From: Actinomyces capricornis
GTDB taxonomy: Bacteria; Actinomycetota; Actinomycetes; Actinomycetales; Actinomycetaceae
Direction of reading: 5' to 3'
Length of the DNA stretch: 64,000 bases
Assembly: GCF_019974135.1 (NCBI RefSeq)
Contig: NZ_AP025017.1
Span: forward strand, 2,418,001-2,482,000
Positions 13,706 to 58,703 of this stretch are shown here, in pieces. A program made the translations under genes and the position numbers. How positions within the stretch are numbered: position 1 is the first letter of the stretch; each line of letters begins with the position of its first letter. The notes beneath the pieces were generated by a model. That model ran no database searches and was not told the origin of the DNA. It saw only the letters and a list, made by a program, of their open reading frames with translations.

Positions 13706-13777
13706 TGGGGTATGGTGTAATTGGCAACACGACTGATTCTGGTTCAGTTATTCTAGGTTCGAGTCCTGGTACCCCAG
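13706..13777 (+). tRNA. tRNA-Gln (anticodon CUG)
   Basis: The acceptor stem TGGGGTA pairs with TACCCCA, discriminator G. The anticodon stem ACTGA/TCAGT encloses TTCTGGT, giving CUG (13739-13741). The T arm carries GGTTCGAGTCC. No CCA is encoded. Confidence 0.95.
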
Positions 13778-13801
13778 CGGAGAACAACTCCATCACATCT
13801 G

Positions 13802-13874
13802 GCCCCCATCGTTTAGCGGCCTAGGACACCGCCCTCTCACGGCGGCGGCGCCGGTTCGAATCCGGCTGGGGGTA
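13802..13874 (+). tRNA. tRNA-Glu (anticodon CUC), copy 1
   Basis: Acceptor GCCCCCA pairs with TGGGGGT (G1-U72 wobble), discriminator A. The anticodon stem CCGCC/GGCGG encloses CTCTCAC, anticodon CUC. GGTTCGAATCC marks the T arm. Confidence 0.95.
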
Positions 13875-13915
13875 CGCAGGAGCAGGCAGGCCGTCAGGCA
13901 GCCGGCTCATGTCAG

Positions 13916-13988
13916 GCCCCCATCGTTTAGTGGCCTAGGACACCGCCCTCTCACGGCGGCGGCGCCGGTTCGAATCCGGCTGGGGGTA
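13916..13988 (+). tRNA. tRNA-Glu (anticodon CUC), copy 2
   Basis: Identical to copies 1 and 3 except for one D-loop base (TAGTGG instead of TAGCGG). Spacer from copy 1 is 41 nt and unrelated in sequence. Confidence 0.95.
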
Positions 13989-14052
13989 CGGATGGGAGGC
14001 AGACCCGCCAGGGCTGCTCTCCCCATCGGCGGAGCGATCGCTCCCACATACT

Positions 14053-14125
14053 GCCCCCATCGTTTAGCGGCCTAGGACACCGCCCTCTCACGGCGGCGGC
14101 GCCGGTTCGAATCCGGCTGGGGGTA
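14053..14125 (+). tRNA. tRNA-Glu (anticodon CUC), copy 3
   Basis: Same sequence as copy 1. Followed within 6 nt by a strong hairpin, so it is probably the last gene of a tRNA-Gln/tRNA-Glu transcript. Confidence 0.95.
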
Positions 14126-55387: not shown

Positions 55388-56779
55388 TCAGGCCGCCCGC
55401 CGGGCCAGCAGCGGGGTGGCCGCCAGCAGGACCACCAGGACGATGACGATCCCCACCAGTCGGTCCTGCTCCACCCCCAGATCGGTGGGGGCCACGAAGG
55501 CGGCGGCCAGCGTGCCCAGGGTGGCGGCGCCCGCCGCCGAGGCGATGGTCACCGAGGTCGCGGCGCGCGCCTCGGAGATGCCGTCCCCGGGCCGGTCCTC
55601 CTGGGCCGGGGGCGGGCTCACGCAGCGGATGATCGTGTCCTGGTGGCTCAGGCCCATGCCCGCCCCCGCCAGGGTGAAGCCCACGTGCATGCACCACCAG
55701 GGCGCCTGCCCGTGGAAGGCCGCTGCCATGATCAGCCCGCCGACGACGAAGCACACCGCCCCCAGGCAGATCCGGCGCATGTAGCGGCCGGGGGCCCGGG
55801 CGGGCCTGGAGCCGTTCCACAGCGCCACGGCGGACCAGGCCACGCCCGCGGCCGTGAGCGCCCAGCCGATCATGCCCGCATCCAGGCCCAGGACATCGTG
55901 GGCCGCGGGGGCCACGAGGTAGTCCAGGGCCAGGTAGGCGGTGCTGACCCAGGCCAGGGTGGCGATCCCGGCCCGCCGCCCCGGGACCAGGCGCAGCGTG
56001 CCGGGCGGGAAGACCCGCGCGCAGGCCCACAGTGCCGCCGCCACCCCCATGGCGCAGCCCGGCCAGAACCAGGGGCCGGCCGCGGGCAGGGCGCCGATGA
56101 TCCCCACCCCGCCCGCCAGGGCCAGTGCCGCCGGCCAGGGGGCCCCGGCTCCCTCATCCTGGCCCACCCGCAGGCCGCGGATCTCACGGGACATCACCAG
56201 ACGCGCCCCGATGAGCAGGGGGATGTAGGCCACCAGCGCCCAGCGCCAGCTGTAGAGCTCGGAGATGGTGGCGGCGTAGGCGGGGCCCAGGAGTGAGGAG
56301 ATCACCCAGGTCGCCGACCCCACGGCCAGGAACAGTCGCCGCCAGGCATCGGGCAGGCCCGCCACGAGCACGCCCATCGACACAGTGGCCAGCGCCCCGG
56401 CCGCCAGGCCCCGCAGCACCTCCCCTGCCACGTATACCTCGATGCCCGGGGCCAGCGCGCCCAGGACGGCACCCACGACCAGGAGGGCCGTCAGCGCCGT
56501 CATGAGCCGATCCGCCCGCCAGCGGGCGAGCATCGCCCCGCCCAGAGGCATGGTCAGGAAGGTGGGCACCTGCGCGGCCGCCGTCACCAGACCATAGTGG
56601 CTGCGGGCGTGCAGGTCGGTGGCCAGCAGGGGCAGGACGGTCTGGTTGATATAGATCTGCATCCCGGCCAGCAGCTCGACCACGAGCATCGCCATCACCA
56701 GATGGCCCTGACGGGTGACCAGGGTGTTGCGCAGGGAGAGTGCGGGGGACGGCTCGTCAGCAGCAGGGGCATGGCTCAC
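55388..56779 (-). CDS. MFS transporter, unknown substrate
   Basis: 463 residues from GTG 56779; the open frame to 57580 overlaps hflX and is not coding. About twelve hydrophobic helices. VTAAAQVPTFLTMPLGGAMLARWRADRLM carries a motif A-like loop, and the N-terminal QIYINQTVLPLLATDL resembles DHA-type exporters. A Pro-rich cytoplasmic loop lies near residue 385. No substrate can be named. Divergent from hflX. Confidence 0.85.
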   Translation of the reverse strand: MSHAPAADEPSPALSLRNTLVTRQGHLVMAMLVVELLAGMQIYINQTVLPLLATDLHARSHYGLVTAAAQVPTFLTMPLGGAMLARWRADRLMTALTALLVVGAVLGALAPGIEVYVAGEVLRGLAAGALATVSMGVLVAGLPDAWRRLFLAVGSATWVISSLLGPAYAATISELYSWRWALVAYIPLLIGARLVMSREIRGLRVGQDEGAGAPWPAALALAGGVGIIGALPAAGPWFWPGCAMGVAAALWACARVFPPGTLRLVPGRRAGIATLAWVSTAYLALDYLVAPAAHDVLGLDAGMIGWALTAAGVAWSAVALWNGSRPARAPGRYMRRICLGAVCFVVGGLIMAAAFHGQAPWWCMHVGFTLAGAGMGLSHQDTIIRCVSPPPAQEDRPGDGISEARAATSVTIASAAGAATLGTLAAAFVAPTDLGVEQDRLVGIVIVLVVLLAATPLLARRAA

Positions 56780-56786
56780 AATGCTC

Positions 56787-56792
56787 AGGCTA
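56787..56792 (-). promoter_or_regulatory. -10 hexamer TAGCCT, leaderless start of second MFS gene
   Basis: On the minus strand TAGCCT is followed by 7 nt and GTG 56779; no SD. Confidence 0.5.
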
Positions 56793-56895
56793 CCGAGCCG
56801 CTCGCCGGGCGATGCCCGTGCCGGGGTTGGGCCTGCGGGCAGGGGCGGGCGCCTCCCGCCGTCGGGTCGCACTGGCCTCGCACGGGACCGGGCGC

Positions 56896-56901
56896 TATAG
56901 T
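56896..56901 (+). promoter_or_regulatory. -10 hexamer TATAGT of hflX leader
   Basis: TATAGT is the most canonical -10 in the window (5 of 6). It ends 8 nt before the ATG of a 7-codon ORF and about 150 nt before hflX. Confidence 0.6.
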
Positions 56902-56909
56902 CCTGCCTC

Positions 56910-56933
56910 ATGTGGATTCTTCGTATGCGCTGA
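56910..56933 (+). CDS. Candidate leader peptide MWILRMR of hflX
   Basis: Leaderless ATG, seven codons, TGA stop. The peptide ends in Arg-Met-Arg, matching the (Arg/Lys)-X-(Arg/Lys) motif at which macrolide-bound ribosomes stall in known leader peptides such as ErmDL. A 7-bp hairpin begins four bases after the stop. Too short for homology; support is the promoter spacing, the motif and the placement before hflX. Confidence 0.4.
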   Translation: MWILRMR

Positions 56934-56936
56934 GCC

Positions 56937-56998
56937 GCCTGTGACGCCACAGGCACTCGCCCCCCAGTCCCCTGCAGGCCCGATGGCCCCTGGGCTGC
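56937..56998 (+). promoter_or_regulatory. Two hairpins in the hflX leader, possible attenuator
   Basis: Hairpin 1: GCCTGTG-ACGC-CACAGGC (56937-56954), perfect. Hairpin 2: GCA(G)GCCC...GGGCTGC (56974-56998), 7 bp with one bulge. GCCTG of hairpin 1 could instead pair with CAGGC at 56975-56979. No U-run follows. Confidence 0.35.
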
Positions 56999-57050
56999 TT
57001 CCACCCACCCGGGAGCGGGCCGACGCGTATGCCGACGAGAAGGAATCCTT

Positions 57051-58703
57051 GTGACCCACCACCCCACCCCTGACTCCACTGACTCCGCCTGCTCCGCGGA
57101 CCCCGCGGGCCCGGCCGATTCTGCTGACGCTGCAGTCTCTGCGGGCGCGCCCCCCACGACGACGGCCGAGGACATCGTCGCCCGCGTCCTGTCGCGCACG
57201 GGCACCGCCCTGGCCTCCACCGCCGCCTCCACCGGCTCCCTGGCCGGCCCGCAGGAGGGCGGGGACCTCGACGACGGCGCCATCGAGCGCGAGGCCCGCG
57301 CCGGCCTGCGGCGGGTGGCAGGGCTGTCCACCGAGCTCGAGGACGTCTCCGAGGTCGAGTACCGCCAGGTCCGCCTGGAGCGGGTCGTCCTGGTCGGCCT
57401 GGACCTGTCCACCCGGCGCGCCGCCCCGGCGACGGGCCTGGGCTCCGCCACCGCCCGGGCCGAGCAGGACTCCCAGGACGCCGAGACCTCCCTGCGCGAG
57501 CTGGCCGCCCTGGCCGAGACCGCCGGCTCGGAGGTCCTCGACGCCCTCATCCAGCGGCGCGACCACCCCGACCCGGCCACCTACCTGGGCAGCGGCAAGG
57601 CCCGTGAGCTGGCGGACATGGTGGCGGCCAACGGCGCCGACACGGTCATCGTCGACGGCGAGCTCGCCCCCTCCCAGCGCCGCGCCCTGGAGGATGCCGT
57701 GGGCGTCAAGGTCGTCGACCGCACCGCCCTCATCCTGGACATCTTCGCCCAGCACGCCAAGTCCCGGGAGGGCAAGGCCCAGGTCGAGCTGGCCCAGCTG
57801 GAGTACCTCCTGCCGCGCCTGCGCGGCTGGGGCGAGTCGATGTCCCGGCAGGCCGGCGGGCGCGTGGCCGGGGGGCAGGGGATCGGCTCGCGCGGCCCCG
57901 GCGAGACCAAGATCGAGCTGGACCGCCGCCGCATCCGTGAGCGCATGGCCAAGCTGCGCAGGCAGATCAAGGCCATGGAGCCCTCCCGGCAGGCCAAGCG
58001 CGGGTCCCGCCGCCGCGGGCGGATCCCCTCGGTGGCCATCGCCGGCTACACCAACGCCGGCAAGTCCTCGCTGATGAACCGGCTCACCGACGCCGGGATC
58101 ATGGTCCAGGACGCCCTGTTCGCCACCCTGGATCCCACGGTGCGCCGGGCCGAGACCGCCGATGGGCGCGTCTACACCCTGACCGACACCGTCGGGTTCG
58201 TGCGCAACCTGCCCCACGAGCTCATCGAGGCCTTCCGCTCCACCCTGGAGGAGGTGGCCGGCGCGGACCTGCTGCTGCACGTCGTCGACGCCGCCCACCC
58301 CGACCCGGTCAGCCAGATCGCCGCCGTGCGCACGGTGCTCTCGGAGATCCCGGGCGCCCTGGAGGTCCCCGAGCTCATCGTGCTCAACAAGGCCGACCTG
58401 GCCGACGCCGTCACCCTGGCGGCCCTGCGCACGCGCCTGCCGGGGGCCATGGTGGTCTCGGCGCGCACCGGGGAGGGGATCGAGGCCCTGCGCGAGCGCA
58501 TCGACCAGATGCTCCCGCGCCCCGAGGTGACGGTGGACCTGGTGGTGCCCTACTCTCGCGGCGACCTGGTCTCCCGGGTGCATGCCGAGGGCGAGATCGA
58601 GACCATCGACTACGCCCCTGACGGCACCCGGATCGTGGCCCGGGTCAGCGCCGCCCTGGCGGCAGAGCTCGAGTCGGCCGCCCGCCCATCGGCCCAGTCC
58701 TGA
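57051..58703 (+). CDS. hflX: Ribosome-splitting GTPase HflX
   Basis: 550 residues from GTG 57051, with GAGAAGGA 6 nt upstream. A variable acidic N-terminal extension of about 60 residues precedes the HflX nucleotide-binding domain (YLGSGKARELADMV, RTALILDIFAQHAKSREGKAQVELAQLEYLLPRL, GGRVAGGQGIGSRGPGET) and the G domain (P-loop GYTNAGKSS near residue 332, DTVGFVRNLPHEL, LNKAD). HflX splits stalled 70S ribosomes during heat or antibiotic stress; homologues give macrolide and lincosamide tolerance in Listeria and mycobacteria. The leader upstream suggests inducible expression. Confidence 0.96.
   Translation: MTHHPTPDSTDSACSADPAGPADSADAAVSAGAPPTTTAEDIVARVLSRTGTALASTAASTGSLAGPQEGGDLDDGAIEREARAGLRRVAGLSTELEDVSEVEYRQVRLERVVLVGLDLSTRRAAPATGLGSATARAEQDSQDAETSLRELAALAETAGSEVLDALIQRRDHPDPATYLGSGKARELADMVAANGADTVIVDGELAPSQRRALEDAVGVKVVDRTALILDIFAQHAKSREGKAQVELAQLEYLLPRLRGWGESMSRQAGGRVAGGQGIGSRGPGETKIELDRRRIRERMAKLRRQIKAMEPSRQAKRGSRRRGRIPSVAIAGYTNAGKSSLMNRLTDAGIMVQDALFATLDPTVRRAETADGRVYTLTDTVGFVRNLPHELIEAFRSTLEEVAGADLLLHVVDAAHPDPVSQIAAVRTVLSEIPGALEVPELIVLNKADLADAVTLAALRTRLPGAMVVSARTGEGIEALRERIDQMLPRPEVTVDLVVPYSRGDLVSRVHAEGEIETIDYAPDGTRIVARVSAALAAELESAARPSAQS

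Follow-up and report, generated by a model that had tools for sequence, protein, structure and literature searches.

HflX homologues make bacteria tolerant of macrolides and lincosamides. In the actinobacteria studied, hflX is induced through WhiB7, as described for WblC/WhiB7 in Streptomyces and mycobacteria (PMC7157823, PMC10727445), and the whiB7 gene is itself switched by an upstream open reading frame (uORF) acting as a transcription attenuator (PMC10727445). A Streptomyces hflX mutant is reported to be fourfold more sensitive to erythromycin (PMC7157823). In Listeria, the hflXr gene is described as induced by lincomycin and erythromycin via an ORF bearing the motif RLR (PMC6310831). Arg-X-Arg is, in the account of PMC8298421, the main arrest motif for ketolides and one for macrolides too: once the nascent chain in the P site ends in Arg-X, no peptide bond forms with the incoming Arg. 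Stalling at this motif is most frequent with telithromycin and less so with erythromycin, and context counts, with some motifs being spared (PMC8298421).

The window analysed here is a stretch of 64,000 nucleotides from Actinomyces capricornis. It contains an hflX gene, identified by its TIGR03156 score (437 bits, cut-off 217) as the one HflX equivalog-level match seen in this genome, whose start codon (57051) lies 141 nt downstream of the start (56910) of a seven-codon uORF (Table 1). Read directly from the sequence, TATAGT (56896-56901) is followed by an 8-nt spacer and the ATG; the stop codon occupies 56931-56933, and 117 nt separate it from the GTG of hflX. This reading and the predicted fold bear out the layout proposed in the initial annotation, namely TATAGT, 8 nt, ATG, seven codons, TGA, two hairpins, SD, and GTG. 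The perfect 7-bp hairpin that it placed four bases after the stop exists, but begins three bases after it. A generic sigma-70 scan of 55500-58500 returned no promoter, and a terminator scan of the same interval returned no terminator-like site. At gathering thresholds, Rfam 15 found four tRNAs and nothing else in the whole window; these tRNA genes form a cluster on the + strand at 13706-14125. Taken as a whole, the window's leader has a predicted fold that is only moderately more stable than those of its shuffles (z -2.0, with 6/200 shuffles as good). Divergent from hflX, a gene resembling an MFS transporter extends from 55388 to about 56780 on the - strand. In three relatives (L004, L010, and L011), a protein end much like its C-terminus (LLTPLLAR) lies on the hflX strand directly upstream of the uORF, and the MFS-like neighbor thus seems, from sequence, to be inverted between the window and these genomes.

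Table 1. Features of the hflX leader region, with positions in the window.
Feature	Position	Strand	Basis
-35-like TGGCCT, 17 nt upstream of the -10 box	56873..56878	+	Sequence
-10 box TATAGT	56896..56901	+	TANNNT 6-8 nt upstream of the uORF start in 39/39 uORF species
Leaderless uORF MWILRMR-stop, candidate arrest peptide	56910..56933	+	Codons ATG TGG ATT CTT CGT ATG CGC TGA
uORF bases predicted to pair with the hflX RBS: 56914-56920/57042-57048, 56921-56923/57033-57035, 56924-56930/57025-57031	56914..56930	+	Predicted fold; consensus folds of relatives
Hairpin P1 (hairpin 1 of the initial annotation), GCCTGTG-ACGC-CACAGGC, seven pairs, variable among relatives	56937..56954	+	Sequence and predicted fold
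Second hairpin, upstream of the RBS element; P3 at the corresponding place in relatives	56991..57022	+	Predicted fold; covariation in 24 aligned relatives
RBS-side element predicted to pair with the Arg-Met-Arg codons: CGCGTATG in the window, CGCATACG in many relatives	57024..57035	+	Predicted fold and complement search
hflX Shine-Dalgarno (SD) AAGGA (57040-57044) and following bases; 57042-57048 predicted to pair with uORF codons 2-4	57040..57048	+	Predicted fold
hflX, 550 aa, start GTG	57051..58703	+	TIGR03156

All of the 49 Actinomyces genomes compared (37 of 37, and 12 of 12 further ones) have hflX. In one of them (G012, C77 9090-10636), the gene appears as two overlapping frame pieces, possibly through an assembly error, given a genome completeness of 82%. 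The region upstream of hflX was searched without reference to any residue, for TANNNT followed after 5-9 nt by one of four start codons and an ORF of 3-15 codons. A uORF encoding MWxxRM[R/P] was returned in 39 of the 49 genomes, 12 of which also list an overlapping, out-of-frame GTG reading; no ORF of this geometry precedes hflX in the other ten. Codon usage was then tabulated by means of a pattern in which TGG, CG-ATG, and TGA are fixed, the residue-free search having returned the same 39 genomes. The first codon is ATG in 38 and CTG in one; the second is Trp throughout; the third is Ile in 34, with others in five; and the fourth is variable (Leu 20, Phe 8, Thr 4, Ser 2, Val 2, Ile 2, Pro 1). 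All 39 have Arg at codon 5 (CGT 34, CGG 4, CGC 1), Met at codon 6, and TGA as the stop, and codon 7 is Arg in 36 (CGC 31, CGT 3, CGA 2) and Pro in three. Synonymous changes occur in codons 3, 4, 5, and 7. The TANNNT box 6-8 nt upstream of every one of these uORFs makes a transcript with its start codon at the 5' end a candidate prediction; the TGG of the -35-like box is frequent but not universal among 30 relatives.

Genome-wide, 38 of the 49 genomes contain a single copy of the peptide pattern, one contains two, the second of which has no ATG before its TGG, and ten contain none; across all 49, a reversed control pattern is found once. A stricter scan of GTDB contigs, in which the spacer was fixed at 7 so that some relatives cannot match, found 13 loci. 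Twelve belong to Actinomyces (the named carriers include A. oris, A. naeslundii, A. johnsonii, A. haliotis, A. bovis, and A. urogenitalis), and in all of these a same-strand hflX match begins 96-222 nt downstream. The last, in an unrelated Contendobacter MAG, has no hflX on the contig piece examined. By these comparisons, the uORF is a real, genus-wide element with a peptide-like pattern of conservation.

Beyond the genus, the uORF was found in none of 56 other Actinomycetaceae, that is, the 60 family genomes with hflX after removal of three from Actinomyces and of G608, where the gene is partial. Ten of the 56 have some short ORF of the same geometry. One of these, MVVFRGR (G600), ends in Arg-X-Arg, lies 403 nt away, and is taken for chance. 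At the level of the order, hflX was found in 147 of 149 genomes, and of the 27 loci outside the genus that were examined, one has short ORFs of this geometry, which are unlike MWxxRMR. A pattern search of 396 genomes across the phylum gave no matches, with a fixed spacer of 7 that would miss even the window's own copy. The initial annotation had asked whether a short leaderless ORF is conserved before hflX, and across Actinomyces it is, synonymous changes included; the R-X-R ending that it described is kept in 36 of 39 species and replaced by Pro7 in three. Its wording "actinomycete hflX" proves too broad, since among the family genomes examined the ORF was found in Actinomyces only.

Nine of the ten uORF-less genomes (L015, L016, L029, L112, L113, L118, L127, L132, and L133) have TANNNT 10 nt upstream of an ATG in frame with hflX, which suggests that hflX itself is nearly leaderless there; the tenth (G002) has neither the uORF nor a near-start TANNNT. 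On an HflX tree that was midpoint-rooted for drawing only, these nine fall in two places, as a group of seven and a pair, and the presence or absence of the uORF requires two changes. The pair (L015 and L016) is nested among uORF species at 99/92, and looks, on this tree, to have lost the element. In the group of seven, because the rooting is by midpoint only, the ORF may have been lost or may never have been present. One of the seven (L118) has a broken hflX gene and an exceptionally long branch on the tree. Spacers are alike between the two groups, so transfer of the promoter region is possible. These species offer natural comparisons for the role of the uORF.

The Arg-Met-Arg codons (CGTATGCG) are complementary to CGCATACG. 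Of the 39 uORF species, 26 have the string GCATACG within 28 nt upstream of the hflX start region; in the ten uORF-less ones, searched from 450 nt before hflX onward, it is absent. The window is one of 13 leaders in which this element is changed, and keeps eight pairs, two of them G-U (56922-56929 with 57024-57031). A consensus fold of 30 leaders together with RNAalifold gave zero pairs, after which two clades were folded apart; the long helix, including the AAGG of the SD, was found both with 12 relatives and with the nine-member oris/naeslundii set. With 24 diverse leaders, P3 was found and the long helix was not, the RBS element being engaged in a different short pairing.

When a named helix is counted, 89.8% of cells pair in 30 leaders vs. 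7-59% when it is slid; shuffles match this percentage in 18/500 cases, the covariation score in 2/500, and the count of both-sides-changed pairs in 331/500. For this helix plus P3 in 24 leaders, 96.0% of cells pair vs. 14-49% when slid, with shuffles matching the covariation score in 0/500 and the both-sides-changed pairs in 267/500. Seven of the 11 doubly changed cells lie in P3 and four in the uORF helix, the latter all in one clade (L024, L025, L026, and L126) that has CGG for Arg5 and, in three members, CCG at codon 7; in this clade, the RBS side has changed too. A test of each uORF against its cognate partner was positive with 27 related rows (28/20000) and not significant with one row per clade (1165/20000), where the own partner was better in 7/15. 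The energy of the uORF:RBS duplex is matched by 17/300 letter shuffles in the window and by 0 to 161/300 in other species. Taken together, the covariation evidence from these alignments for a uORF:RBS helix is suggestive, not decisive.

Since the conserved partner of the uORF sits at the hflX SD, the likely switch is the hiding and exposing of the RBS, which is translational, and not read-through. The initial annotation had cast hairpin 1 as the switch element and read-through into hflX as the step controlled. Hairpin 1 was dropped as a conserved core, as its sequence and extent vary among relatives and the conserved partner is the stretch before and over the SD, and read-through was revised toward translational control. 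Of the compensatory changes that it had called for, coordinated ones are seen in P3 and in the uORF helix of the CGG clade. As proof of the helix they were set aside, given the one-per-clade result and an effect of ribosome masking (below) that is weak in three of these four species.

The footprint of a ribosome stalled on the uORF would cover nt 1-33 of the predicted transcript. With these positions held single-stranded, opening the hflX region from -20 to +13 is predicted to cost 4.76 kcal/mol less, averaged across the 39 species, which are related and not independent cases, vs. 0.82 kcal/mol for control masks of equal length. The drop exceeds 2 kcal/mol in 28 of 39 and is below 1 in eight, among them three of the four CGG-clade species. 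The drop is larger than that of the mean control in 36 species and than that of the best control in 28, and the window itself gives 3.5 vs. 0.3 kcal/mol. For the SD alone, the average chance of being unpaired rises from 0.24 to 0.39 with the uORF mask, and is 0.31 with control masks where those fit; it increases in 29 of 39 species, but in the window it drops slightly, from 0.34 to 0.29.

What the sequences show is that the ORF is conserved, that its promoter has a leaderless geometry, and that the ORF is complementary to the hflX RBS. The interpretation that we favor, and that we consider somewhat better than an even chance, is that the uORF is a translational attenuator of hflX, in which the ORF would itself be the anti-RBS strand and would be opened by a drug-stalled ribosome; by analogy with the systems above, the drug sensed is probably a macrolide or lincosamide. 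The leaderless mRNA would start with the seven-codon ORF MWxxRMR. Without drug, ribosomes would finish the uORF quickly and codons 2-8 would pair before and over the hflX SD, closing the leader around its internal hairpins so that the hflX start is masked. In the presence of a drug that binds in the tunnel, which is most likely a macrolide, ketolide, or lincosamide, the ribosome would stall with Met6 in the P site; the chain would then end in Arg5-Met6, and Arg7, or Pro7 in three species, would fail as acceptor. The stalled footprint, spanning the whole ORF, would block the helix, and the HflX then made would split drug-stalled ribosomes. We infer the drug class, the stall site, and the direction of the switch; Pro7, we also infer, would be a poor acceptor.

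An unlikely alternative is that the position of the ribosome on the uORF sets premature termination, intrinsic or Rho-dependent, before hflX. The nearest functional relatives, Listeria hflXr and the whiB7 uORF, are described as acting in this way (PMC6310831, PMC10727445), the leaders of the uORF species are 96-174 nt long with stable hairpins, and in seven of 39, all from the oris/naeslundii set, a run of T4-T5 directly follows the helix next to the start codon, so termination is possible there. However, a terminator-like site is absent around hflX in the window, the other 32 leaders contain no T4 run between the uORF stop and the hflX start, and the conserved pairing partner sits at the SD. 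An intrinsic terminator with an antiterminator, of the rli80-hflXr type, was rejected on the first two of these observations. The same uORF:RBS switch could also respond to charged tRNA-Trp or tRNA-Arg, or to generally slow translation during cold or starvation, which we rate as improbable. Trp2 is invariant in 39/39 although it lies outside the Arg-X-Arg motif, and in mycobacteria, induction at the whiB7 uORF has been interpreted as a response to ribosome-stalling stress of any kind (PMC10727445). Against this, a starvation sensor would be expected to contain more than one Trp and two Arg codons, HflX is not known to take part in amino-acid supply, the Arg5 codon differs synonymously between species, and Pro7 replaces Arg in three species; starvation for Trp or Arg is unlikely to be the signal.

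It is about equally improbable that the uORF is a constitutive damper, an mRNA-stability element, or a device for reinitiation coupling, and not an inducible switch. Nine species lack the uORF and have a nearly leaderless hflX behind a similar box, which means that hflX can do without induction; yet the combination of a variable codon 4 with a fixed Arg5-Met6-Arg/Pro7 points to the peptide, and the distance from the uORF stop to hflX in the window is long for reinitiation. Seven codons are few, and a single genome could not exclude a chance ORF without function. The same place, frame, and promoter spacing in 39 of 49 genomes refute this reading, as do the single copy in 38 of 49 genomes and the position of 12 of the 13 GTDB loci before Actinomyces hflX, and we give it almost no weight.

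Translational attenuation by the uORF would act in cis, and the question arises of whether WhiB7 acts here in trans. The motif GAAAWY is absent within 80 nt upstream of all 39 uORFs, and GAAAWY-N3-TKK precedes hflX in six of the 27 order-level loci and in none of the 39 uORF leaders. A loose GAAAWY occurs in six of the ten uORF-less Actinomyces; in all six it is the ATGGAAAAC start of hflX, and one has a further copy. A WhiB7-like query with the RGRPRK hook, which we take to mark WhiB7, matched in none of the 49 Actinomyces, in a search for which the genus itself supplied no positive control. Three or four WhiB paralogues, none with this hook, are present in each of five Actinomyces, and four genomes of another family (L164-L167) have five each, one of the five with the hook; a protein of this kind served as the query. 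A WhiB7 regulon promoter before the uORF was rejected as a candidate, with the box in 0/39 and the protein in 0/49. The family search covered 61 genomes, three of them Actinomyces; the query matched in 14 of the 61 and was absent in 44 of the 58 outside the genus. Within the family, the box is present in 1/13 genomes with WhiB7 and 2/43 without; it thus tracks WhiB7 poorly, and replacement of WhiB7 by the uORF is kept as a side hypothesis.

In the openly licensed PMC literature searched, including searches for the peptide strings, no description of this hflX leader element was found. Among its nearest known counterparts is Listeria rli80-hflXr, which also has a short Arg-X-Arg ORF before hflX and in which stalled ribosomes induce the gene (PMC6310831). 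That system is described as having a 14-aa ORF, transcription attenuation by terminator and antiterminator, and a second hflX copy (PMC6310831), whereas in Actinomyces the ORF has seven codons and is predicted to be leaderless and to pair with the hflX RBS, no terminator was found in the interval scanned, and one HflX equivalog-level match was seen in the genome of the window. The Bacillales element uORFC-6-1 is likewise a predicted Arg-Leu-Arg uORF before hflX, with RNA structure downstream of the start codon and antibiotic stalling proposed; as described, it differs in its host group (51 representatives) and in its proposed transcriptional action (PMC8632094). The whiB7/wblC uORF is similar in being actinobacterial, in that stalled ribosomes switch the gene on, and in having hflX among the WhiB7 targets, but it is presented as transcription attenuation on a regulator gene, with hflX controlled in trans, and the Actinomyces sensor would sit on hflX itself (PMC10727445, PMC7157823). 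A broader proposal, which we hold tentatively and regard as possible but somewhat doubtful, is that Actinomyces, without WhiB7, carries the sensor on hflX itself: a minimal leaderless arrest ORF of seven codons would be both drug sensor and anti-RBS strand, one ribosome stalled on the first 24 nt would open the rescue-factor gene, and at least one lineage would since have discarded this device for a nearly leaderless hflX. If this is true, a cis switch in a genus without detected WhiB7 would mean that drugs can induce hflX by a second route, independent of the first and outside Firmicutes.

In its presumed mode of action, the element resembles the translational attenuators of erm and cat genes, in which a drug-stalled ribosome in a leader ORF is described as freeing the RBS of the resistance gene (PMC5418344, PMC13410324, PMC9226507). 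ermC rearranges separate leader hairpins (PMC13410324); in Actinomyces, the ORF's own codons are the predicted RBS-hiding strand. A conserved short leader ORF, a mark of attenuators of the erm and cat type, lies before hflX in 39 of the 49 genomes. The ORF of cat leaders shares bases with the stem that hides the RBS. Leaderless attenuator ORFs also exist in actinobacteria, namely the mycobacterial polycysteine ORFs, which sense cysteine supply and belong to other operons. If the proposed switch is real, it would show that seven leaderless codons suffice for an arrest ORF and can at the same time serve as the anti-RBS strand, which would make for a compact design.
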